DNA of 24,329 bases from a virus. Positions 6,587 through 19,583 of this stretch are shown here, piece by piece. Within the stretch, counting starts at the first letter, position 1, and every line of letters begins with the position of its first letter. The translations under genes and the position numbers were made by a program. The notes below the pieces were generated by a model. That model was not told the origin of the DNA. It made no database searches and was given only the letters and a program-made list of their open reading frames with translations. The stretch is taken from IMG/VR virus record IMGVR_UViG_3300024346_000498, positions 1 to 24,329 of that record. One strand, 5' to 3'.

Positions 6587-9500
6587 TTAAGTAGCAGCAA
6601 TAGCTCTAAAATCTTTTACAGTAGGCGGAGTTGATGAATTTTGAGATCTCATAATGATTTTAAAGGCCATTGAACCAAAGCTACCAGCAGGATCAATTGA
6701 GTATTTAACTTCATTATAAACATCATCGCTATTATTTATAGGCATATCATTTGATGGTAAAGCATACGTCCAATCAAGTAGATCAAAATCAGTGTCTGAA
6801 CCTGCAGGAAGAGTTTTATAATATAAATCAATGTTAGTACCAGAAGGTCTATTTATTGACATATAAAGATCAATCACATCAGCTTCTTCAACTAGATCGA
6901 TTTTCTTAGTGATATACTTACAAAGCTCTGATCCGCCATAAGCATTTGTTTCAGCTGTAGTTCCATTATCGCCAATTTTATTTTGTACAGCAATAACAGA
7001 TAATCTATTAGCATCAAGAACTGGACTTAAATGATCTTTATTACTTGTAAATACTGCTTTTAGTTTAAATGTCTTTATGCCACTATCTTCATTAGACGGA
7101 GAAGAAATAACTCTTGGATTAGAAAAGAATTCATTCATATTTGGCAATACTTCAATTTCGTCTTGAGCTTGATACGCAGTTTCATTTCCATCAATCGATT
7201 GTTGCGATGTCGAAACTAGATAATATCTAATATCTGTTTCTGGCAATATCATTTGAGAAGCTACAATATTACATAAGTCAAAATGTATATTTCCGGTGGC
7301 TGTTATATTTGAACCTCCGCCAGCACCAACGCCAGTTGAGTTATTAGTTGATACATCTGAATTTTTAGCTGTAATAGTATATGAATCATGCTTAATATTA
7401 GAAATTATATGAGTTCCATTTATATTGTTGGCTGCAATACCATTAAACGCCGCTGCTCCAGCAATAATAACTGATGATGAACTTTGATGTATACCATGAT
7501 TAGGATGTATAACCGTAATAACTCCTGAATTTTGAGTTGTTGATAAAGAGTCAGGATTAAGCTTTGTAGGTTGGATAATATCATTTACAAATGTTACTTC
7601 CTTAGATGCATTAACACTAAATTGAGCTCTATTTAAAGTAAACTTAAGATCTTTACTTTGATCCGGAGTCCAAGTTGAAGCGTTTTGAGAAGTAAAGAAC
7701 GAACCACCATGTGGTTGCTTATTAATTCTGTAATTAGCATTAGTTACATCAAAGCCACCCATTTCAGCAACCCAAGCTTCATATTCATCGCAATCAGCTT
7801 GTATGACAATAGCATATTCTTGATCTTGTTGTAAATAAACTGGAGTTTCAAAATTAAATCTAGTTGAAGAGGCTGCAGTTGCTGATATATTAACATCTCC
7901 TGGGTACATATCAACTTCACTACCTGGAACAACCGTTTGAGTTGGTATACCATTTTCAACTGTAACAATACTTACGCAAACCGGAATTTGAACATCATCT
8001 CCAGTTTTTACGTTATACTTAGTTCTAAAAAATAAATCAACAGAGCTTGCAAATAATCCACCTTGTTTTTCTATAAGAATTGTTTGTGCTAATGGATCGT
8101 GCCAAGTTGTAGTTGTTTTTCTAAACGTTTCACTAATAACTCTGTCTTGATTTAGTCGACTAGTTTCTAATCTAGGAACTTTAGTATTAGTAATAGTCCT
8201 TTGTGTAGACTCAATAAGACCTTGAGCATGAAACATTGTTTCAGCACCAGTACCTTCAGCTTGTTTATTATTAGTTTGCGAATCAGATAATCTAAATTCT
8301 TTAGTACCAGTTTTAAACTTCATAGTACTATTTCTAGGAATAATAAACGTACCTGAAATTTCGCCTTTATTATCAGTAGATAAAATCCCACTAGAAGATC
8401 CTGGGTGAGACGTACTACCTGCATAGTTTAATACTGAAGTAGTTTCAGACCACTCTTGATATGCTTCTTCTCTACAAAATGCTGTAACATTAACATCATT
8501 AAAGAATGCATACACTTTAGTGTTTGGTTTCATTCGAGTAGCTTTAAAATAAATCTTTCTTGATCTCATAAATGGAACGAAGTTAACTTCAACTATTCTA
8601 TTTCCACTATCTCTAGTTACAGTGTCGAAAGTAACGTCGGTTCTTAAGCCGCTTCTTGATTGATTATGGCTAAGAGTAGTAGTTGTTGTAGTATCTCTTC
8701 TAATGTTTCCACGTCTTCTGCCTCTACGACTTCGGAAACCTTCTTGTCTCCACCAAGCTCTTCTTTCCGAACGAGTAGTTTTTCTAGAGGATACTGAAGT
8801 TTCTACTTGTCGACCTGTCCAGTTAGTTTCCCACTCGTTCCAAACAGTACCAAGAATACCTTGCTCTTTAGCTCTTTCAACAAACTGGTTATATTGACCA
8901 TCATCATTAATAATAATATCTGGTCTAACATCAGTCTCTTTCCACTCATCCGATTCTGGTGAAAGATGAACTCGACCATTCCAAGTAAACACGTTATATG
9001 GGTTTACGTTTATAGCAACAGAAGCATAAGGCTGAACTGTATGAGAAACTTGAGTAAATGGCATTGTCCAAACTGAGCCAGTTTTCTGTGCAGTGCCTGC
9101 AATATTGGAAGCAGTAATAAGATTTACGTTATTAGTTGGACACTCTGGTCTTAATATTCCATTTTCTTTATCAACAGATTCACTACATTCTGGATGTCCC
9201 ATATTAGCAACTGATTGATCTTTAAATGAATCTACAATCATGCCATTTTTAAATCTGCTTAAACCAGCACTATCAACCATATGAACATCAGCAGCTGATT
9301 GTTCTAGTAAAGATAAAGAAGTATAATATTCTAAATTCTTAATTCTCTTATCAAGCTTGCCAATATCACGCATTGTGTATCTTTTATTATCTTTGATTTC
9401 TGGAATAACATCGCCTAAATCAAAGATATAAGGCTTTAACTTTAAAGAGTATAGAGTGAGGCCATCTTCTTTATCTTCAGGAGGTTGCGGATATGGTGAT

Positions 9501-11908
9501 GGAACACCTTTAATAATTTCAAAAGCTCCATCTCTTTTTATAATAAGCTTATCAATTCTAGGAAGATAATAATTAACATCAGCGGTTAAAGCGTGACCTA
9601 CTTTAGGAGAACCAGATAAACTTGATCCAGTACCAGTAAAATTATTAGAACCACTAGAATCATCTGATTTTCTAGGTCTAAAATCAATACAATCTCTTAA
9701 TTCAAATTCTCCGCCAGGACCAACAAAGATTGGAATATTACCATAATCTTCAGTTGGATATGAATCAACGCAGAAATAATCCCCAGCACCGTGGGTATAG
9801 TATTTAAATACTACTACCATATTACCAGTAGGAATACCTGCAGTTCCAGATAGTTTTTGAAGAGAACCTTCAGTATAAAAATTAGCTCTTTGGCCGTCGT
9901 CAAATGTAAAGTTGTTTGTTTGATCTATACCACTAGAATCTGTAATAGAAACTATTTCAATAATATCAGATTTATCTAAAGCATATGTCTGTTGATCACT
10001 ATTAGTTACAGAAATAGTTTTAGTAAATGTAGTATTTGTTTTTACCTTAGGAGAAATAGTTTTCTTAATTGTTCCAATACCCTGAACCACAACTCCATTA
10101 GCAATATTTAATCCACCGGCTGAGCAATCATAAGCCATAGTTGTTTTACCATTACCAGTATTTGCTCCGGTTTTAAAACCACTAACGTTAGTTTTTATAA
10201 CAGCTCCAGCTGGAGCTAAAATAATATCATTTACATCTTCAAATAGACCAATTGATGTAGTAAATGTTAAAATCTCATTAGTAACAGTAGCACTAAAAAA
10301 TCTTTTTATAGAATATGTCGTATCTCTTGTTGGATCTGCTAATGTTTTTACTGCAGATTGAGGCAACTTAAATATAGATGTATTATTACCAACATCAAAT
10401 CTATGGCCATCATCTGCTGTTAAGAATTGGCCTACAAATGACCTAGCAGTATCAGCAACATTATCTACGTCATTAAACGTTTTAGTTGCATGCGTTATTT
10501 CAATATCAAATAAATACAACCTAACAGAAGCAGAAAAAGCTTCCATTGATTTTACTCTTGCTGTACCTACTACAACACTACTGTCCAATAAAGTTATTGG
10601 TGTAAATGATTGAACGTCTGGAGTTCCTTGAACAGTAGTAGCGTCTAGCCTAATATAGTTACCATAGTTAATTTGAGTATTAGTCTCATTTTCAAAACCA
10701 GTAGCATCAGACCCTCTAGGTTTGTCCACATCAATATATGTAGTTCCTACCTTTTCGTTTCTATATCCTTGAACATATGCAGTCGATGGCTCAATACCAA
10801 TAGCAATTTTATTAGCATCTCCGCCTTCAGCGCCAGATAGATACTTACCAAAATTTGTGCCATCATTTAAATGTTCAAGAATCTCAAGTTCAAATGGTTT
10901 TGTTATGTAATCACCAGACTCATCGTGAGTTCTTTTTGCTAACCTTAATGACAATCCAGTGTCTGCGGTTTTATCGGTTTTATCAACTACAATAATACCA
11001 TTATCAACATTTAATAAGGTAATATATTTATCGACTGTTCTACTAGCAATATCAATTGGCTGTTTTATTAGAGTTGTTGCAATCTGATATCTATTTGCGC
11101 CAGGAGCAGAAGTGTTAGGAACGCCTTGAGCGTTATCAACTAAAGACGCATCGGTACCTGAAGTTACAATATTTTCAGCAACTTGCAGTCCAATAATATA
11201 AGAAGGATTATTTGTGTACTTATCTAAAATAAGCGTTGAAGCGGAAACATAAATAAAACACCCTGATATGAAATATACGCCTTCTGATATAGATACTGCA
11301 GAGCCTTTTCCAATTGAATTACTAATAGTAGAAGCTGCATTCGCTCCGTCGGTGTTACTACCGCCACCAACCATTGCATATTTTACAGGATCAGCATTTG
11401 ATACTATTACTTCGCCTTCTGCAAATTTTTCAACGTTAAGAGTATCGCTATCAGCCCCACCAGATTTTTGGTATTTAATATATAAAGTATCTGGTTCTGA
11501 TGCATCAACTTTAGGAACAGCTTTTAAAACTAAAGCCGTTACTTGATTTCCGCTATTACCAGTACCAGTAATAAGACTTCCCTCAAAGGCTGATAAATTA
11601 TTAGCGTTATAAGCAGTACCACTATAAGTAAATGTTGATTCTAGTTTTATATAATCAAATTCAATATTAAGAGATACTTCTCCATTTACGACTCTTGAAC
11701 CATCTTTAAAAGCATATTGTCCGTGCCTATCAATTTGAGCTTGCAGCATTGTTTGCATTTGAGTAAGCTCACGAGCTTGTACTGCATATCCTGGACGAAA
11801 TAAAATCCTATGATAATTTTTAGTTTCAACTGTCTGGCCATTATAATCTCTGAAATAGTCATCAAAGTATGGCGTGGCGTTAAATGTTTTTATATTGGTT
11901 GTTGTCAT
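6587..11908 (-). CDS. Large DUF4815-type virion structural protein
   Basis: A 1773-residue protein. The N-terminus contains NYHRILFRPGYAVQARELTQ and MLQAQIDRHGQYAFKDGS, the signature I recognise from the DUF4815 family of marine T4-like phages. Further on are an Arg-rich stretch (about 1040-1073), then FVPFMRSRKIYFKATRMKPN, then DPLAQTILIEKQGGLFASS (about 1269 on) followed by a PVYLQQDQEYAIVIQ segment. All are of the type seen in big structural proteins next to gp8 in cyanophage-like genomes. A later segment (about 1467-1517, HPNHGIH ... INGTHIISNI) resembles short beta domains common in such proteins. It sits directly after gp8, where T4 has gp9/gp10, so a peripheral baseplate role is likely; equivalence to gp10 is not shown. 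The start has an AGAGAGAA ribosome site and an exact late-promoter motif just upstream. Confidence 0.85.
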   Translation of the reverse strand: MTTTNIKTFNATPYFDDYFRDYNGQTVETKNYHRILFRPGYAVQARELTQMQTMLQAQIDRHGQYAFKDGSRVVNGEVSLNIEFDYIKLESTFTYSGTAYNANNLSAFEGSLITGTGNSGNQVTALVLKAVPKVDASEPDTLYIKYQKSGGADSDTLNVEKFAEGEVIVSNADPVKYAMVGGGSNTDGANAASTISNSIGKGSAVSISEGVYFISGCFIYVSASTLILDKYTNNPSYIIGLQVAENIVTSGTDASLVDNAQGVPNTSAPGANRYQIATTLIKQPIDIASRTVDKYITLLNVDNGIIVVDKTDKTADTGLSLRLAKRTHDESGDYITKPFELEILEHLNDGTNFGKYLSGAEGGDANKIAIGIEPSTAYVQGYRNEKVGTTYIDVDKPRGSDATGFENETNTQINYGNYIRLDATTVQGTPDVQSFTPITLLDSSVVVGTARVKSMEAFSASVRLYLFDIEITHATKTFNDVDNVADTARSFVGQFLTADDGHRFDVGNNTSIFKLPQSAVKTLADPTRDTTYSIKRFFSATVTNEILTFTTSIGLFEDVNDIILAPAGAVIKTNVSGFKTGANTGNGKTTMAYDCSAGGLNIANGVVVQGIGTIKKTISPKVKTNTTFTKTISVTNSDQQTYALDKSDIIEIVSITDSSGIDQTNNFTFDDGQRANFYTEGSLQKLSGTAGIPTGNMVVVFKYYTHGAGDYFCVDSYPTEDYGNIPIFVGPGGEFELRDCIDFRPRKSDDSSGSNNFTGTGSSLSGSPKVGHALTADVNYYLPRIDKLIIKRDGAFEIIKGVPSPYPQPPEDKEDGLTLYSLKLKPYIFDLGDVIPEIKDNKRYTMRDIGKLDKRIKNLEYYTSLSLLEQSAADVHMVDSAGLSRFKNGMIVDSFKDQSVANMGHPECSESVDKENGILRPECPTNNVNLITASNIAGTAQKTGSVWTMPFTQVSHTVQPYASVAINVNPYNVFTWNGRVHLSPESDEWKETDVRPDIIINDDGQYNQFVERAKEQGILGTVWNEWETNWTGRQVETSVSSRKTTRSERRAWWRQEGFRSRRGRRRGNIRRDTTTTTTLSHNQSRSGLRTDVTFDTVTRDSGNRIVEVNFVPFMRSRKIYFKATRMKPNTKVYAFFNDVNVTAFCREEAYQEWSETTSVLNYAGSTSHPGSSSGILSTDNKGEISGTFIIPRNSTMKFKTGTKEFRLSDSQTNNKQAEGTGAETMFHAQGLIESTQRTITNTKVPRLETSRLNQDRVISETFRKTTTTWHDPLAQTILIEKQGGLFASSVDLFFRTKYNVKTGDDVQIPVCVSIVTVENGIPTQTVVPGSEVDMYPGDVNISATAASSTRFNFETPVYLQQDQEYAIVIQADCDEYEAWVAEMGGFDVTNANYRINKQPHGGSFFTSQNASTWTPDQSKDLKFTLNRAQFSVNASKEVTFVNDIIQPTKLNPDSLSTTQNSGVITVIHPNHGIHQSSSSVIIAGAAAFNGIAANNINGTHIISNIKHDSYTITAKNSDVSTNNSTGVGAGGGSNITATGNIHFDLCNIVASQMILPETDIRYYLVSTSQQSIDGNETAYQAQDEIEVLPNMNEFFSNPRVISSPSNEDSGIKTFKLKAVFTSNKDHLSPVLDANRLSVIAVQNKIGDNGTTAETNAYGGSELCKYITKKIDLVEEADVIDLYMSINRPSGTNIDLYYKTLPAGSDTDFDLLDWTYALPSNDMPINNSDDVYNEVKYSIDPAGSFGSMAFKIIMRSQNSSTPPTVKDFRAIAAT
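6733..6740 (-). promoter_or_regulatory. Candidate T4-type late promoter near the end of the DUF4815 gene
   Basis: An exact TATAAATA octamer on the minus strand, within the last codons of the 1773-residue gene and about 160 bases before the 74-residue gene. It could give a transcript for the small gene and the fibre. Chance occurrence is not excluded. Confidence 0.3.
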
Positions 11909-11937: not shown

Positions 11938-13335
11938 TTAGAATTCGATAATGATTTTTATATCTTCGATCTGTGAAGCTGTTCTGTCAATTGGATTTCT
12001 ATTTTCTAAAAATACAATATCGCCACTATGTATGTCAACTTCAGGATTAATTAGAAAATCTCCCGCAACGGGTTTTGGCGTTCCTTCAGCTGAAGATGTA
12101 GAACCAATTACTGGAGAACCAGTTACAAAGTTTCCATATCCAGTTTTAGAATTTTGTAGATAATGTACATAGCCAGTACCACTATCAACTTCAACGACAA
12201 ATGCTTGAGCTAAACTTGCTCCACTACCTTGAGTAATTAATTCATCAACTAGAAATGCTTGTGTTGTTGACGCAAAACTTAAAGCTGGAGTTGCTTTTAA
12301 TGTTGGCTCAATTGATTTTGTAGAAGTTCCAAAATTAAATGGGTTTTTAACTAAAGTAATTTGTCTAAAATCATTGCCAGTAGTTAAATCACCGCCACCA
12401 GTTCCATCAAGCAATGTGTTAACCGCAGAAAAGAAACCACCAAGTTCTTTTACAGGATCAGTTCCATGTCCATTTTCAGGAGAAAGAACTGCTCGAGCTG
12501 TTGCCAATGTACCACCACCGCCATCGATAACAATATGGGCTGTTGAATAATCAGTACCCTTTGCATTTATAGTAATACTAGCAACTGATCCGCTTGAAAC
12601 CACAGCAGTTGCTGTTGCTCCAGTACCAGCACCGGTAATATAAACATTAGGTGCTGAAGTATAACCACTACCACCAGCATCTACTACAATTCTTTCAATA
12701 CCCCCAGCAGTTGTAGAATCTCTTGATGCTTTTTGGTTTAGATATTGAGCGTAGTCACCTTCAGATAATGCTAATTCAGCGGCACTATCATTGGCAAAGG
12801 ATTCAACATTAATAGTTTTAACAGGCATATAAGATGTTGTAAGGAATTTTTCTGCATCAGCGACGGCTACTGTATACATGTATTTCCAAATATAATTGTC
12901 AGATTCTGCTGTTGGCGAAGTCAAAGTTTGTGTTGGTTCCTGTGTTGAACCAGTTCCAGGAGAGTATATACATTTATATACTTTAAACTCTGATGTAATT
13001 ACATAAAAAGCAACATCAAAAATATCAGCATTATTTGAATCCCATTGAACATATGAAGTACCAGTAGTCCAAGTATGTCTTGGTACCACGTGAGTTACAT
13101 CAGCAGCATTTAATTTTTTTAATGCAAAAATGTTTTCACGAGCTTCTACTAATGCATCGATTGTATCATATGGGGTGAATGGTTCTGCATCAGTCGTGTC
13201 TGAAGTAGCGTTTGACCATGCATCGGTTTTACCAATTGCTACGTATACACTAGAGCCAGAATTTGCAGTATCTATATCTTCTTTAAAATTTTCTGCATTT
13301 AAAGTTCTAAATTTGGAGGTTATAATTGCCGTCAT
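11938..13335 (-). CDS. gp8: Baseplate wedge protein, T4 gp8 family
   Basis: A 465-residue protein (T4 gp8 is 334). The start, AIITSKFRTLNAENF, matches T4 gp8 AIVTSKFRTEKMLNF. The core FRQITLVKNPF and the C-terminal IVFLENRNPIDRTASQIEDI also match the T4 equivalents FRQISIITNPL and MIYMENRPPI ... QTEEI. Gp8 is a wedge component that contacts gp7 and gp10 in T4. The extra length includes residues about 216-281, a Gly-rich insert with GGSGYTSAPNVYITG and GTDYSTAHIVIDGG, related to repeats in the neighbouring gp7-like protein. The ATG at 13335 has a strong ribosome site, AGGAAAG, at 13340-13346. The gap from the gene upstream is 32 bases. Confidence 0.92.
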   Translation of the reverse strand: MTAIITSKFRTLNAENFKEDIDTANSGSSVYVAIGKTDAWSNATSDTTDAEPFTPYDTIDALVEARENIFALKKLNAADVTHVVPRHTWTTGTSYVQWDSNNADIFDVAFYVITSEFKVYKCIYSPGTGSTQEPTQTLTSPTAESDNYIWKYMYTVAVADAEKFLTTSYMPVKTINVESFANDSAAELALSEGDYAQYLNQKASRDSTTAGGIERIVVDAGGSGYTSAPNVYITGAGTGATATAVVSSGSVASITINAKGTDYSTAHIVIDGGGGTLATARAVLSPENGHGTDPVKELGGFFSAVNTLLDGTGGGDLTTGNDFRQITLVKNPFNFGTSTKSIEPTLKATPALSFASTTQAFLVDELITQGSGASLAQAFVVEVDSGTGYVHYLQNSKTGYGNFVTGSPVIGSTSSAEGTPKPVAGDFLINPEVDIHSGDIVFLENRNPIDRTASQIEDIKIIIEF

Positions 13336-13367: not shown

Positions 13368-16304
13368 CTAGTCATGTAAATCTGCTGAATAATTACTTGA
13401 ACCTATGAATGTATTCACGTTATATTTATTTATATCACTTATAGAAGTACTTTGCAACTCTGTGTCACCTAATACCTCTAAAGTTTCATTAAAATCATAA
13501 AGCATATTACTTTTTAATATATTTGTTTTTTGAGAGTAGTAATCATTTGATTGAATTGTTCTATATCCAGCTGGTACTACTGTTACTTCGTAGCCGCCCA
13601 TAAACTTATCAGTTGATGGAGTTGTTTCTGTAATATTCCAGTTTTGGCCTGATGTAAGAACACCTTTTTGTAAAAGTTTACCATTGTATAATTGCCTTCC
13701 TCTAACAGAAGCAACTGATTGAACTGGATTTGTTACTTTAACCGAATAAGGATCAACATCAGTATGATTTAGCTGTAAAATTCGAGTAACCTTTTGTGGT
13801 TTAACTCGACTTTCGTTCTTAGCAATTGAAGAAATATAAACATTAGGATTTAATATGTATCCAAAGCCAGGATTAGTAATTTCTGTAGATTGTATTTCAG
13901 AAGGAACTAATTGACAAATAGCTGTTGCATTACCCGATATAGATATTGTTGGAACTTCAGTATATCCAGAACCTTTATAGCTAACTACTATTGAATTTAA
14001 TCTTCCATCTTCAATGTGACTAATAGCTCTTGGGAAATCCTTTTTAACTGTAATTGAAACATCATCAATATATACTATACCATCAATGCCATCACCTTGG
14101 ACTCCTATGTAATCTTCATTAGTAGGATTCAAAGTAGAAATATTATATTCAAATTCAAATTCTTGCCAAGAATTAGTAAGATTAAACGATTGCCACCCGC
14201 TATTACCATGTTGCGATGTTGAATACGCCATTCTAAATGTATCTGCTCCGCCTGAAGTTGACTTCTTCGCTCTACATTTTACTTTAACTGTATTCCCGGC
14301 CAGTCTATTTGTAAACTCAGGATTAGTTAATTCTAATCTATATACAGCACCACCAATATTACCCGAAGCATTTGAATCTAACGTTGATGTTTGTACTTTT
14401 AATACCTTAGATCCGCCTACAGTTTGAATAGATGCTGCATGATCGCTGGCTCCTATTATTTGCCAGTTATCATTAACCCAAGTTCCTATAGCGCTATTTT
14501 CAAAGTTATCGCTGAAGAACGGCTGAGCAGTATAAAATATATCTGGATCTGAGAATACAATATCTGGATGTGTTGTATAGCCATTCCCAGTGTTAGACAT
14601 TTCTACTCTATCTACTGAAGTTGGAGCTAGAATATATTTACCAGCTGCAGTAATATTAGTTGATAATGGTAAACCAAGATTATCTACTGATGTAGGAGCA
14701 TCAAATGTAATGCTAGGCGCTGTAGAATATTTTTTAGTAGTATCGGCAACAATTGTAATATCTGATATTTTAGATATATTAGGATTAGCTGCAACATTAG
14801 CAAATGCTGATTGGTAATTACTTCCGGCACTTTGAACTGTAGCTCCATTAATTTTACCATTAGAGTCAATAGTACATGTTATTGTAGCTTGAGTAATTGT
14901 CTGGCCAGTGAGTGGAACGCCATTAACTATAATTGTTGGTGCTGTTGTATATCCAAAGCCAGGATCAGCAATTTCAACAGCTGTTACAGTATTAGCTGCA
15001 GCTCCACTAGTTGGAACTGTTAGAGACATTCTACCAGATCTATGAATATTAGTAAATGTAAACGGTAAGAACGTAGAGGCAAACATTTCTACTAATAACG
15101 GAATATCTTCTATGCCAATAACGCCTGGTTGTAAATCTGGCATAGCAGATTTTGTAAACCGGTTTGTTCTACCATATCCAAAATAAGATTCACCAGTTAA
15201 CTGATTATGTTTTGGACCACCAACATATCTTAGTTCTCTTAAAATCTTTTGATCATCACCTAACTCGTCTCTAGTACCAAACAGTTGTATAAGAATTTCA
15301 GCAAAATATTTAAACCCTGCGGGATGTACTAATCTATCATAAAAATAATTCCATGAAGATAGATTTTGACCAGTACGTATAAGATACGAAAATTTCTGGT
15401 ATCTTAAACTATCTTGAACTTTAATAGTATCTGATAAGAAACCTTTTTTATCTAAGTATATACCACCTTTAGGAAGACTAGGATTAACTTCCCAGTTTCC
15501 AGAAGAAGGAATAAGTGTGCTATCCCACGGAAATTCAACTTCAACTTCGTCATCAAATAGTAACCTAAAAAATACTTCAATAGAATCAGACGAACCACGA
15601 ATTTTATAATAATCCGTCATTGCTTTATAAAGATTTCTTTTATTAACAGGAATAGATCTTGGTACAACAGCAGCGATTTCTTTTTGTATAAGTTCTAAAT
15701 ACTGAGCCGCAGTATGATCAATATCCATAGACTCTTCAATAGTATTAAGAGCATATGAAGCGCCAGGACCCGCCCAATATGTTACTGGTGTTGTAATATT
15801 TGCTATTTGTGAATTATAATTAACATTAGTTCCAAGGTTAACTGTAAACGTTTTACCCATCGCTGTGCGAGAATTTGCTAAACTTCCAGGTAAATTATTA
15901 CCATTTGAAATATGAACATTACTATCGTCCATACTAAACGTTGATATTACACCATCTGAATCGGTTAATGTTAATATTGAGTTAGAGCCAGAAGAGTCAC
16001 TAAAGAAATGATCATTTTCGTTCCTTGGATCATTAACTCTAAAAACTGCTTTATTATCTAAAACTACATCTGAATATGTTTCAGTTTCTTGATATACGAA
16101 CTCTTCTAAATTCATATATGAGTAATAAGCTTCTAATAATAATTGTAATCCACCTGAATTTTCAAGTATTTCAGCTGACATTAATTCTTCAGTTCTTAAA
16201 TTCTCTTTTGTTACAGCTTTAGACGAAGCATTAGATTCAATATATCCAGGCGAGGATATATCTGAAGAAAAATGAACGTTATTAGGATTATGAGTTCCAG
16301 CCAT
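13368..16304 (-). CDS. gp7: Baseplate wedge protein, gp7-like, with carbohydrate-binding-like insert
   Basis: A 978-residue protein between gp6 and gp8, the position and approximate size of T4 gp7 (1032). The N-terminal part contains ILENSGGLQLLLEAYYSYMN, IPVNKRNLYKAMTDYYKIRG and FFRLLFDDEVEVEFPWD, a pattern I associate with the gp7-like wedge protein of marine T4-like phages. The middle and C-terminal parts carry at least four GxGYTxxP repeats (about 441, 565, 771 and 805). An insert at about 593-755 runs from FFSDNFENSAIGTW to VYIDDVSITVKK and resembles the beta-jellyroll carbohydrate-binding modules of the CBM4/9 type. In T4, gp7 joins the wedge to the outer baseplate. The start follows the gp6 stop by one base, so translation is probably coupled. 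The assignment rests partly on position. Confidence 0.8.
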   Translation of the reverse strand: MAGTHNPNNVHFSSDISSPGYIESNASSKAVTKENLRTEELMSAEILENSGGLQLLLEAYYSYMNLEEFVYQETETYSDVVLDNKAVFRVNDPRNENDHFFSDSSGSNSILTLTDSDGVISTFSMDDSNVHISNGNNLPGSLANSRTAMGKTFTVNLGTNVNYNSQIANITTPVTYWAGPGASYALNTIEESMDIDHTAAQYLELIQKEIAAVVPRSIPVNKRNLYKAMTDYYKIRGSSDSIEVFFRLLFDDEVEVEFPWDSTLIPSSGNWEVNPSLPKGGIYLDKKGFLSDTIKVQDSLRYQKFSYLIRTGQNLSSWNYFYDRLVHPAGFKYFAEILIQLFGTRDELGDDQKILRELRYVGGPKHNQLTGESYFGYGRTNRFTKSAMPDLQPGVIGIEDIPLLVEMFASTFLPFTFTNIHRSGRMSLTVPTSGAAANTVTAVEIADPGFGYTTAPTIIVNGVPLTGQTITQATITCTIDSNGKINGATVQSAGSNYQSAFANVAANPNISKISDITIVADTTKKYSTAPSITFDAPTSVDNLGLPLSTNITAAGKYILAPTSVDRVEMSNTGNGYTTHPDIVFSDPDIFYTAQPFFSDNFENSAIGTWVNDNWQIIGASDHAASIQTVGGSKVLKVQTSTLDSNASGNIGGAVYRLELTNPEFTNRLAGNTVKVKCRAKKSTSGGADTFRMAYSTSQHGNSGWQSFNLTNSWQEFEFEYNISTLNPTNEDYIGVQGDGIDGIVYIDDVSITVKKDFPRAISHIEDGRLNSIVVSYKGSGYTEVPTISISGNATAICQLVPSEIQSTEITNPGFGYILNPNVYISSIAKNESRVKPQKVTRILQLNHTDVDPYSVKVTNPVQSVASVRGRQLYNGKLLQKGVLTSGQNWNITETTPSTDKFMGGYEVTVVPAGYRTIQSNDYYSQKTNILKSNMLYDFNETLEVLGDTELQSTSISDINKYNVNTFIGSSNYSADLHD
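13427..13434 (-). promoter_or_regulatory. Candidate T4-type late promoter upstream of gp8
   Basis: An exact TATAAATA on the minus strand, followed immediately by a second partial copy (ATAAATA), inside the last codons of the gp7-like gene and about 92 bases before gp8. It would leave a leader of about 85 bases. Plausible but internal to a gene, so moderate to low confidence. Confidence 0.4.
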
Positions 16305-16305
16305 C

Positions 16306-18171
16306 TTATCTTAGCCTTGATGTTGTTGTATAATCGATTGTACCCGAAGAACCCGATACTGATATAGTATCTATGCTTGGAGTTATTTGCACTCTTAATG
16401 GATCAATAGCAATTAATTGATCTCTCTTAGGAGCAAGATCTAAAGAGTTTGGAACTGCTGTAATTCTAATTGTATCAGGAGAATCATCATCTGGTATAAA
16501 GTTGTTTAATGTAATAGTTCCATTAGCAATATCAATTAAACCAGCATCATTTATAACAGTAACATTAATAGAATTATCGATTTTATAAACAATAACTTGT
16601 CTATCAGTCGATCCTGAAATTGGAATATCGCCGAAATATACTTCATCTCCATTCAACTTCCAAACTGTAGAAGAAATAAGATAGCTATTAGAAGAACCCG
16701 AATTAAAAAACGGTGCTGTAAATCTTAAACTAAAGTTATTATCTAAATTTGCTGCTGATTTGTTTGGTGTAATATTCATAAACATATAAGGGCGAACACT
16801 GCTATTTTGAATAGCGGGATCAGCGTTATCAATTGCCTTGAGAAGCTGAGAATGCCTAAATACGCCATCAAACTTATTTAACTCATTAAAATTATAATCT
16901 GAAATAGTATCTCTAACAACAGACTGAAGTTCTACTCCAGATCTATCTGTTAGGTTAGGATTATATTTAAACGAAACATCTAATTCTAAATAAGTAAAAT
17001 TAGGATCTACAATAACTGGCGTAATAGATACAACACTCTTACCTTTAAGAATTGTATTCATGATTTCGGTTTTTTCGTTTTGGGTCAATACTTCATTAAC
17101 CAATGGTTTAATAGAAATATAAACAGCTCCATAATCTGGTGGATCATTATCTTCACCACCCCATGTAGAGATAGAATTAATATTTGTAAACTCTTTCTTG
17201 ATAATTGCTCTGTAATCGTCTGATGTTACAGCTCTATTCTGCGAAGTAAATGTTAAGGGTGCGTTAAATCTTATAGATTCATTTGTTTCCTTTTCAGTAC
17301 CACCCATAGATTTACTTAAGGTATTAACAGTTACATTTGAATAACCACCAATATTATCTACCATAGTAAATACATTAGCGCCGTTAGAATCTTCGCCATT
17401 AGTAAAAATATAGTCAAGCGTTACTATGTTATTGTTAAGAGGTTTTTTACCTGTTACGCCATCGCCAAAATATACTTCAAAGTATTCATTTGAATTTTCT
17501 TGGAGATAAAATACTCTGCTTGACGAATCAACATTAAGTAAAGATTCAAACTGAGTATAGTTATCATAAGAACTAGATTCTTCGTTAGCTTGAATAAGAA
17601 CTCTAAGAGTTGAAGTATCAGCATCATCGTCTGATATTTGATATTTTTGATTTTCAATATCGTTATCAACTCTATATAAAAGCTTTTTACGAGTACCCTC
17701 TACAATAATAACATTATCAAAAGTAAACGTATTACCATCTCCAGAAATAACAGCAGATTGTTCATTAAGGACTACGTATCTATAGTTTCTTCCATCAACA
17801 TTAGTAGTCAGCTTAGCACCCCGAGGTAGAGTTAATGTAGATGGAATAATACCTGATTCTCCTGAGACATCAACTGTAATTGTAATAGTCGCTCTTGGCG
17901 CTAAAACTGAACGGGGTATGTAACCTAATAGCTTAGCTCGAGTAACAATATTACCACGAATCTGAGCAGAATCCAAGAATGCTTCATTTAAAGCAAAATG
18001 GGCGGTCATAGCATTGTAGTGCGTATTATAAGCTAACACATCTAAGAGTGAAGATAAACCTGATCCTTCAAAATCATGACTATTAAAAGCTGATTGAGTC
18101 TTTAAATAGTTCTTAAGATTCTTTTTAATCTGATCGAAATCAAGTTCGGTTACATTTAAATTAGTTGCCAT
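16306..18171 (-). CDS. gp6: Baseplate wedge protein, T4 gp6 family
   Basis: A 621-residue protein (T4 gp6 is 660). The N-terminus contains LDFDQIKKNLKNYLKTQSAF, GLSSLLDVLAYNTHYNAM and NEAFLDSAQIRGNIVTRAKL, the usual opening of gp6 and gpJ-like wedge proteins. A baseplate-J-like core follows at about 315-490 (YRAIIKKEFTNINSISTWGG; VYISIKP; later RHSQLLKAIDN). In T4, gp6 dimers form the inner ring linking the wedges around the hub and interact with gp25 and gp53. The ATG at 18171 has an AAGG ribosome site nine bases upstream, overlapping the gp25 stop region; the gap to gp25 is six bases. Confidence 0.92.
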   Translation of the reverse strand: MATNLNVTELDFDQIKKNLKNYLKTQSAFNSHDFEGSGLSSLLDVLAYNTHYNAMTAHFALNEAFLDSAQIRGNIVTRAKLLGYIPRSVLAPRATITITVDVSGESGIIPSTLTLPRGAKLTTNVDGRNYRYVVLNEQSAVISGDGNTFTFDNVIIVEGTRKKLLYRVDNDIENQKYQISDDDADTSTLRVLIQANEESSSYDNYTQFESLLNVDSSSRVFYLQENSNEYFEVYFGDGVTGKKPLNNNIVTLDYIFTNGEDSNGANVFTMVDNIGGYSNVTVNTLSKSMGGTEKETNESIRFNAPLTFTSQNRAVTSDDYRAIIKKEFTNINSISTWGGEDNDPPDYGAVYISIKPLVNEVLTQNEKTEIMNTILKGKSVVSITPVIVDPNFTYLELDVSFKYNPNLTDRSGVELQSVVRDTISDYNFNELNKFDGVFRHSQLLKAIDNADPAIQNSSVRPYMFMNITPNKSAANLDNNFSLRFTAPFFNSGSSNSYLISSTVWKLNGDEVYFGDIPISGSTDRQVIVYKIDNSINVTVINDAGLIDIANGTITLNNFIPDDDSPDTIRITAVPNSLDLAPKRDQLIAIDPLRVQITPSIDTISVSGSSGTIDYTTTSRLR

Positions 18172-18177
18172 AGTTTC

Positions 18178-18651
18178 TTACCTTAAACGTTTTAATACGA
18201 TTTCTACAGTTTCTTGACTATCGTATTCTTTAATTCTAAATTTTACTAGAATATTGTATGAATTATTGTCCGGATTATCATTAATATTAATAAATAAAAG
18301 TTCAACTCTTTGTTCATTATCTTGTATAGTTCTTGCTATATTTTCTTTCATAGCTTGTTTTGTAATTTCGTCAGCTGGTTCAAAAAGAAGAGCTCTTAGA
18401 TTAGCTCCGATTCCAAGTCCAAATGGTCTCTCAAAAAAGTTAGTTAAAAGTAAATTACGAACTGCGTATTTAATAGCTCTATCATCTCTTAGTGGAACAA
18501 TATCTTTACGTATTGGATGAAGCGTTAAATTAAGATCAAGATCAGTCCAAGGTTTTAACCTAGAGCTTGATGAAACTTTTTTAAGATCACCGACAATTCC
18601 GCTTGGTTGGAGAATTTGAGATGACTTATCTGATAGATTATTAGTAGACAT
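18178..18651 (-). CDS. gp25: Baseplate wedge protein, T4 gp25 family
   Basis: A 157-residue protein (T4 gp25 is 132). The conserved core begins near residue 35 (WTDLDLNLTLHPIRKDIVPL), followed by AIKYAVRNLLLTN, RPFGLGIGANLRALLFEP and ENIARTIQDNEQRVEL. This matches T4 gp25 RPFDPEFGCDLSDQLFEN and ERNIESAVRNYEPRI. The family is shared with type VI secretion TssE; it links wedge to hub and sheath. The family's E-P-R motif reads E-Q-R here (113-115). The first 34 residues are an extra, Ser-rich, probably flexible N-terminus. No other Met occurs before residue 101, so the start at 18651 is the only ATG that keeps the core. A late-promoter octamer lies six bases before that ATG. Confidence 0.93.
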   Translation of the reverse strand: MSTNNLSDKSSQILQPSGIVGDLKKVSSSSRLKPWTDLDLNLTLHPIRKDIVPLRDDRAIKYAVRNLLLTNFFERPFGLGIGANLRALLFEPADEITKQAMKENIARTIQDNEQRVELLFININDNPDNNSYNILVKFRIKEYDSQETVEIVLKRLR

Positions 18652-18668: not shown

Positions 18669-19583
18669 TTAGGTCGCTTCTTTATCGGCTAATTTAACCT
18701 TTCTTCTTACAAACCATTCAGCTGCTGCAGTATTAAAATCTTGAGCATCAGCATATAAATGTGGATTTGCGTCTTTTACAAGGCCATAAGTTTCTTTTAA
18801 TATTTGACCTTCTTTCTTAAAATCCCATTTAGCGTCTGGATATTTGGAGCTTAATTTCTTTTGTGCTTCTCTTAGCTCTTCTAATGTTCTACCTGTATGT
18901 CTATATGTGTTATAATCTCCACCTACTGCTTCAATCAATTCTACCCATTGCTCTTCCCATGTAGAATCATAAAACTTTTGATTCTTCTTTTTTGATCCAA
19001 AGCCTTTAAATATCTTATTAGCACGACTAGCAATATACTTTAAATTATTTTTAAAAGAATTACTTAAAAGCTTTCTATTTAATTCTTCTAAATCTTTTTC
19101 GATAACGGGGGTGGGTTCAGGAGCAGCTGGTGGTTCTTCAGGAACCTTAGGTTCAGTGGGCTGCTCTTTTACTGTACCATCTGGAGAAGCTTCAACATTA
19201 GGAACCAAAGCGCAAACATCAACATTAGCTTGAGATTGTTCAAGTAATTCCGCCGGTGTCATATTAAGAAAATCAGCGTTTAAACCTAGGTTACCTAGTA
19301 TACTATCTAGTGTTGGAACACCAGCAGCAAACTTTTCTTTTATTTCAGCAATAGACTTAGCCTTATCAAGCGGATTAGTAAGACCAGTTGCGGCACTTAT
19401 TTTATCTTGTAAGCTTTCAATTTCTGGAAGCTCAGGTTTAAATGATTCTAAATCAGCTTTCATATCATTTAATTTAGATTCCATAGCAGCTAGCTGATCT
19501 TTACCACCAGCTAAGAGATCATCTAATTCTCCTTGCTTAGCTTTTAGATCATCTAAAGCTTTATTATTACCACATAAACTCAT
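18669..19583 (-). CDS. Unrecognised structural-module protein with coiled coil and Pro-rich linker
   Basis: A 304-residue protein; I do not recognise the family. Residues 1-50 (LDDLKAKQGELDDLLAGG and on) read as a coiled coil. Residues about 55-125 are Ala/Leu-rich helices (IAEIKEKFAAGVPTLDSILG). Residues 130-160 form a Pro/Glu-rich linker (PTEPKVPEEPPAAPEPTP). The C-terminal part (165-304) is basic and aromatic, with FKGFGSKKKNQKFYDSTWEE and AEWFVRRKVKLADKE. No signal peptide or membrane segment is seen. The ATG at 19583 has a strong AGGAG ribosome site overlapping the PAAR gene stop. Lying between the PAAR tip gene and gp25, it is probably a baseplate-hub part or assembly factor. A role like T4 gp26 or gp28 is possible but not supported by recognisable sequence. 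Confidence 0.75.
   Translation of the reverse strand: MSLCGNNKALDDLKAKQGELDDLLAGGKDQLAAMESKLNDMKADLESFKPELPEIESLQDKISAATGLTNPLDKAKSIAEIKEKFAAGVPTLDSILGNLGLNADFLNMTPAELLEQSQANVDVCALVPNVEASPDGTVKEQPTEPKVPEEPPAAPEPTPVIEKDLEELNRKLLSNSFKNNLKYIASRANKIFKGFGSKKKNQKFYDSTWEEQWVELIEAVGGDYNTYRHTGRTLEELREAQKKLSSKYPDAKWDFKKEGQILKETYGLVKDANPHLYADAQDFNTAAAEWFVRRKVKLADKEAT

Follow-up and report, generated by a model that had tools for sequence, protein, structure and literature searches.

A predicted CBM-type domain inserted in, and exchanged among, gp7-like baseplate wedge proteins of uncultured T4-like phages

The gp7-like wedge protein and its gene block

The DNA stretch analysed here (hereafter the window) comprises 24,329 nt of the virus record IMGVR_UViG_3300024346_000498 (positions 1 to 24,329). 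It contains a T4-like baseplate gene block that lies entirely on the minus strand, in the order gp25-like, gp6, gp7-like and gp8, followed by two large proteins (Table 1). The nearest cultured relatives of its gp6 belong to the Pelagibacter phages Mosig and HTVC008M and the Methylophilales phages Melnitz (38–40% identity), and the carriers of the insert described below are uncultured T4-like phages that are apparently marine. The 1773-aa protein may correspond to VrlC, by synteny only.

Table 1. Coordinates of the baseplate genes in the window and of the parts of the gp7-like protein
Feature	Position	Strand	Basis
gp25-like wedge protein	18178..18651	−	phrog_261 E 2.1e-34
gp6 baseplate wedge protein	16306..18171	−	phrog_219 E 1.4e-164; Gp6-like_1st, Gp6_C-III, Baseplate_J
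gp7-like baseplate wedge protein, 978 aa	13368..16304	−	PF23786 Baseplate_wedge; gene order gp25-gp6-gp7-gp8; core motif as in T4 gp7 733–900
Wedge core, residues 222–343, YKIRGSSDSIEVFFRLLF ... LVHPAGFKYFAEIL	15276..15641	−	PF23786 (222–337) and T4 gp7 733–900
GxGYT beta-arm, first part, residues 431–585, carries the insert	14550..15014	−	GxGY-type repeats at 449, 494, 573
Predicted CBM4/CBM22-like beta-sandwich insert, residues ∼587–759	14028..14546	−	Absent in 43/63 relatives; AlphaFold; Foldseek
Jellyroll core of the insert (predicted), residues 596–755	14040–14519	−	Strict motif span
Stretch with all 16 window/L012 domain differences	14102..14468	−	Codons 613, 617, 619, 630, 644, 682, 683, 692, 699, 703, 735
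GxGYT beta-arm, second part, residues 760–830	13815..14027	−	GxGYT repeats at 778, 813; collinear with non-carriers
gp8 baseplate wedge protein	11938..13335	−	PF09215 Phage-Gp8 E 3.4e-17; phrog_438 E 9.9e-106
1773-aa protein, VrlC position of HTVC008M and Mosig	6587..11908	−	phrog_358, phrog_877; gene order

The 978-aa open reading frame matches the PF23786 Baseplate_wedge family (E 5.7e-8, 33 bits against a cut-off of 27) and has the position of T4 gp7, between gp6 and gp8. T4 gp7 is alignable only at its residues ∼733–900, which correspond to residues ∼230–343 of the window protein and contain the wedge-core motifs (YKIRGSSDSIEVFFRLLFDDEVEVE...HPAGFKYFAEIL in the window protein vs FYSTKGIEASYKFLFKVLYNEEVEIE...HPVGFGFIAITLL in T4 gp7). 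Comparison of the two proteins with hhalign gives an E-value of 1.4e-4 and a probability of 52%, with T4 866–900 aligned, and hmmsearch of the wedge core against T4 gp7 733–900 gives E 1e-5 in a four-sequence database. These matches are weak but contain conserved motifs, and we regard the two cores as homologous. The Pfam Gp7 helical, 5th and 6th domains of T4 gp7 were not found in the window protein, so the name gp7-like is right for position and core, while the periphery is different. Conversely, T4 gp7 shares the gene order 6-7-8 and the wedge-core motif but has neither the GxGYT arm nor the CBM-like domain. The first-pass annotation had likewise stated that T4 gp7 is not known to have such a module, and no alignment of the inserted region along its length with T4 gp7 was seen.

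A survey of pelagi- and cyanomyophages stated that T4 gp7 is absent from these phages, with VrlC in its place (PMC7029224). We find a gp7-type wedge core downstream of gp6 in HTVC008M gp055 (L108:5436-8486), Mosig_00105 (L107:8882-11506) and Melnitz-3 161 (L103:5605-8295), all annotated as 'head closure Hc2' or hypothetical. The presence of this core between gp6 and gp8 argues against the absence of gp7. The GxGYT arm lies between two core halves in these three proteins and after the core in the window family.

Position and predicted fold of the insert

The phrases on which the first-pass annotation based its carbohydrate-binding-like domain are present in the gp7-like protein, although they begin at residue 596 and not 593: FFSDNF starts at residue 596, WQSFNLTNSWQEFEFEYN starts at 704 and VYIDDVSITVKK ends at 755. 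As had been noted, the module lies among GxGYT repeats, i.e. between those at residues 573 and 778. The insert is present in 20 of the 63 relatives in our tree, which were fetched from IMG/VR, and absent from the other 43. Relatives align to the window protein up to residue 582–587 and resume from ∼760; most non-carriers have a turn of 8–12 residues (GGNGSGATA-type) instead of the domain, while distant non-carriers have a shorter arm. The insertion site does not vary among the 20 carriers in the tree. As the empty site shows, one GxGYT beta-unit is interrupted by the insert, in the turn between two strands. That a discrete module has been inserted into a GxGYT-arm loop, as proposed, is thereby confirmed by the relatives; its exposure on the baseplate surface, also proposed earlier, would follow from the loop position. 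The domain is dispensable, because most relatives do without it.

AlphaFold modelling of the isolated domain, with 14 carriers aligned, predicts a beta-sandwich of about ten strands (pLDDT 84.1, pTM 0.83). Foldseek searches of the PDB with this model retrieve CBM22 as the best match (4XUP and 4XUO, E 1.5e-7), CBM4-2 (E 7e-7) and CBM4 (E 3.8e-6; CBM4/CBM4-2 entries 4BJ0, 2Y6J, 1K42 and 1GUI) and CBM16 (E 1.1e-5), with TM values of about 0.5–0.68 and 13–21% identity. By this model, the fold is a CBM4/CBM22/CBM16-type jellyroll over the whole domain. A profile of 11 carriers run against 177,635 PDB sequences yields six matches at E ≤ 10, all of them to CBM4/CBM4-2 (E 0.013–0.043), which are singly weak and together telling. 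The CBM4/9-type jellyroll proposed in the first-pass annotation is upheld by the predicted structure, but the expected Pfam assignment failed: the isolated window domain scores 15.4 bits against CBM_4_9 (PF02018; E 0.025), below the curated cut-off of 25.9, six of the 11 members match at E < 1 (best E 6.7e-4), and a search of the whole window record with PF02018 gave no match at E 0.001. Because of this score, we regard the insert as a divergent CBM relative and not as a scored member of the Pfam family. The resemblance is not a chance one, because (i) relatives lack exactly this stretch; (ii) the PDB profile matches are to CBM4/CBM4-2 only; and (iii) the predicted fold is CBM-like.

In the whole-protein AlphaFold model (pTM 0.38), the arm and the domain (residues ∼410–826) are confident, with a pLDDT of ∼85 in the first part of the arm (residues 431–585), while the core and the C-terminus are poor. 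This is to be expected of a protein whose T4 counterpart belongs to a gp6–gp7 heterotrimer. Foldseek searches with the whole-protein model returned just the CBM region and long matches of low quality, which were set aside. Domain residues W28, Y108, W118, W127, Y134 and Y159 are invariant in 14 sequences and are candidates for ligand-stacking aromatics on a binding face. The CBM4, CBM22 and CBM16 modules of bacterial glycanases (1GUI, 2Y64/4BJ0, 4XUO/4XUP and 2ZEW) resemble the predicted insert in their jellyroll fold and in the succession of strands through most of the domain, and likewise have the W..F.F strand and the closing Y-I/F-D-D-V strand. By contrast, the insert has about 14–21% identity to them, lies below the Pfam cut-off and is not joined to an enzyme.

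Outside gp7-like proteins, the sole tblastn match in 50,697 phage records is the host specificity protein J of Ruegeria phages DSS3_PM1/VP1, which holds the closest cultured-phage relative of the insert (domain profile vs DSS3_PM1 protein J, E 1.7e-21). This is a lambda J-type tail-tip protein with a fibronectin III domain, and its remainder is unmatched to the window protein. In DSS3_PM1, it contains at L102:3842-4303 a CBM-like homologue of the gp7 insert, in a record that carries no CBM annotation; this segment in turn matches a tail protein from a Halomonas phage (E 3e-16) and has a weak match to the tail fibre of a Rhizobium phage. In BFVD, phage tail fibres and minor tail proteins, together with CenC-like CBM proteins, make up many of the fold matches. 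The domain relatives with a known place sit in host-contact proteins, the nearest in cultured phages being tail-tip and tail-fibre proteins. Profile searches did not find the domain in HTVC008M, Mosig, Melnitz-3 or T4, and no further copies were found in the same viruses, on contigs of up to 113 kb. A bacterial origin was also considered; a pattern scan of 84,980 bacterial and archaeal genomes, a method that reaches fairly close relatives only, yielded no confirmed relative.

Exchange and recent variation of the domain

When the insert is left out and the tree is built from the backbone alone, the 20 carriers are interleaved with the 43 non-carriers, with seven changes of state, at least six of which are forced by well-supported branches. 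A single-clade origin of the carriers is rejected by the AU test (p 7e-6), on a tree with the truncated carrier L022 wrongly scored as empty; the seven changes are the count after correction. Identity also changes along the protein within pairs: it is 95% over residues 1–430, 64% in the domain and 89% after it between the window and L013; 76%, 80% and 74%, respectively, between the window and L082; and 72%, 80% and 55% between L015 and L020. L015 and L091 differ by 24–38% in backbone DNA and by 3.1% in the second half of the domain. Divergence is also raised in the arm adjoining the insert. Carrier G009 and non-carrier L068 are 99–100% identical over ∼2 kb, up to position ∼2700; their identity drops to 74% next to the insert and recovers to 96–99% beyond it. 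This is direct evidence that recombination between nearly identical viruses has exchanged an arm-plus-domain cassette.

Some gp7-like proteins contain a second module of ∼65–75 aa (NxIKLS...LPxGxxVxYdxg...IGGLxxGxxYxVv...xVkLSxxxGGxxIxLTxvG), with several copies each in L094:2845-7215 and L093:2836-7218; in L015 and L082, it is located between window residues 156 and 164. The gp7-like protein as a whole seems to accommodate accessory domains.

Recent changes are concentrated in the domain. Over the 7,549 bp common to the window and L012 there are 22 differences, 16 of which fall inside the 528-bp domain segment, with none in the other 806 aligned gp7 codons. The domain changes affect 11 codons (10 nonsynonymous and one synonymous), several with two or three base changes; with differences within 20 nt merged, there are six events in the domain vs two outside (Fisher p 3e-6). 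Carriers G009 and G010 have 24 differences in 22.4 kb, eight of them in the domain and seven of these in one 13-nt patch, i.e. two merged events in the domain vs 12 outside (p 0.04). Over seven near-identical carrier pairs, the domain has 34 differences in 3,456 nt vs 10 in 17,100 nt for the rest of the gene (∼17× per base), and nonsynonymous to synonymous codon changes are 19:5 vs 3:6 (p 0.03), figures in which the window/L012 pair dominates, the differences are clustered into patches that are not independent and the contigs are metagenome consensus sequences. Nonsynonymous mutations concentrated in small segments of tail proteins have been reported from Mediterranean viromes (PMC6832022).

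Similar short patches of differences are also present in other genes. Four differences occur in 11 bases at 19481–19491 (ORF 18669–19583), where L012 and L014 differ from the window and L016 although these viruses are identical otherwise, and comparison of near-identical contigs (G007/G023 and G002/G008) reveals short clusters in a gp5-like hub protein (L120:7902-7912) and in a very long tail-fibre-like ORF (L126:17575-17579). Micro-recombination or assembly are possible causes of the latter two.

The changed residues 692–703 align near position 110 of CBM4-2, where L110F characterizes the ligand-altered variants 2Y64 and 4BJ0. This overlap with a ligand-altering site is suggestive only, because the alignment there is weak and gapped. 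Amino-acid changes confined to an accessory domain would be explained most simply by selection for altered binding, which we infer.

Proposed role and comparison with known systems

Our results suggest that the insert is probably an exchangeable, fast-diversifying CBM-type adhesion module that acts as an auxiliary adhesin on the baseplate wedge. Given that close relatives are without the module, that phages exchange it and that its sequence changes more quickly than the remainder of the gene, it probably aids host attachment. We propose that (i) the CBM-type jellyroll would sit in the turn of a beta-arm projected from the baseplate by the gp7-like protein; (ii) the jellyroll face and its loops may bind a host-surface saccharide weakly, with avidity; (iii) this weak binding could help the baseplate to land ahead of irreversible attachment; (iv) variation of the host surface would select for change in the module; and (v) the arm-plus-domain cassette is swapped or dropped by recombination, while the domain gathers amino-acid changes. 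Six copies of the insert per virion are expected if the stoichiometry is as in T4.

There is an outside chance that the jellyroll is instead a structural or docking module, which binds a baseplate or fibre protein or pads the arm and has no saccharide ligand. Its location in a structural wedge protein and the putative nature of its saccharide-binding face are compatible with this, as are jellyroll and Ig-like domains being common accessory virion parts in phages, according to work cited in PMC9853417. However, the closest cultured-phage relatives are tail-tip and fibre proteins, near-identical viruses can be without the domain and, unlike a conserved interface, it evolves much faster than the wedge core. 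Rather improbable is binding to a non-host polysaccharide (algal mucilage, marine gel or particles) that keeps virions where hosts grow: the best fold matches bind xylan and glucans, and mucus adherence has been proposed for Ig-like domains (per the review cited in PMC9853417), yet rapid amino-acid change is not expected from such ligands, and its place on the baseplate, not on the capsid, speaks for host contact. Rewriting of the domain by a diversity-generating retroelement, to which multi-base codon changes in one domain with identical flanks might point, is rejected as most improbable, because 21 partial contigs of up to 113 kb contain no reverse transcriptase (PF00078), in a search that detected its controls, because the contigs that carry the domain have no template repeat or second copy of the domain DNA (only matches of chance length), and because there is no clear adenine bias: A/G transitions are the commonest of the 36 changes, 21 are transitions and 16 are without any A.

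A bolder form of the adhesion-module reading, which we consider to have a slim chance of being right, is that the insert gives marine T4-like phages a hypervariable glycan receptor site that is swapped by recombination and lies on gp7, a core component of the baseplate wedge. If so, saccharide recognition would be built into the contraction-trigger relay and not only into detachable fibres.

Host recognition by uncultured marine T4-like phages has mostly been read from tail fibres. An auxiliary adhesin on the wedge would point to an overlooked second host-contact site, on a protein often annotated as 'hypothetical' or 'head closure'. The clean presence/absence series offers a test bed for the effect of an inserted CBM in a contractile baseplate, and read data could be used to follow the variable stretch, whose changes might document arms races over the host surface. 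Phage adhesion devices with CBM-type modules have been described before, including one wedge protein whose CBM folds were tested. As far as the literature searched shows, what is new is that the carrier is a gp7-type wedge protein of T4-like phages, that the empty sites form a clean series, that the cassette is swapped and that recent changes are concentrated in the domain.

By analogy with these precedents (PMC11406892, PMC10688798), reversible binding of the insert to host surface glycans is plausible. The tested wedge protein is Gp119 (baseplate wedge 3) of Bacillus phage Vp4, which has CBM folds that its Deep-Blue homologue lacks; host cells were decorated by Gp119 only and not by the CBM-less homologue (PMC11406892). 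As here, the CBM folds occur in the wedge protein of a contractile tail, and the PDB matches shared with our insert include the CBM16 structure 2ZEY and the xylanase 10B CBM 1H6X. The two systems differ in that (i) Gp119 is another wedge protein (BW3, of the A511 gp105 type) from phages of Gram-positive hosts, while the present carrier is gp7-type of T4-like phages; (ii) our case involves a single-loop insert, exchange among lineages and recent variation of the domain; and (iii) cell binding has been shown for Gp119 and is predicted here.

The second precedent is the evolved Dit of skunaviruses, where CBM insertions promote adsorption to exopolysaccharide-bearing hosts (PMC10688798). The insert described here likewise has the make-up of a CBM-insertion adhesin, i.e. 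an internal CBM-type insert, collinear flanks and presence or absence among close relatives, with a proposed role in adsorption. Evolved Dit belongs to non-contractile tails and an unrelated carrier protein, and its function was shown with recombinant phages. The insert may thus work like evolved Dit and the BW3 protein of Vp4 but is neither of them, because its carrier is a gp7-like protein (PF23786) and not Dit or BW3.
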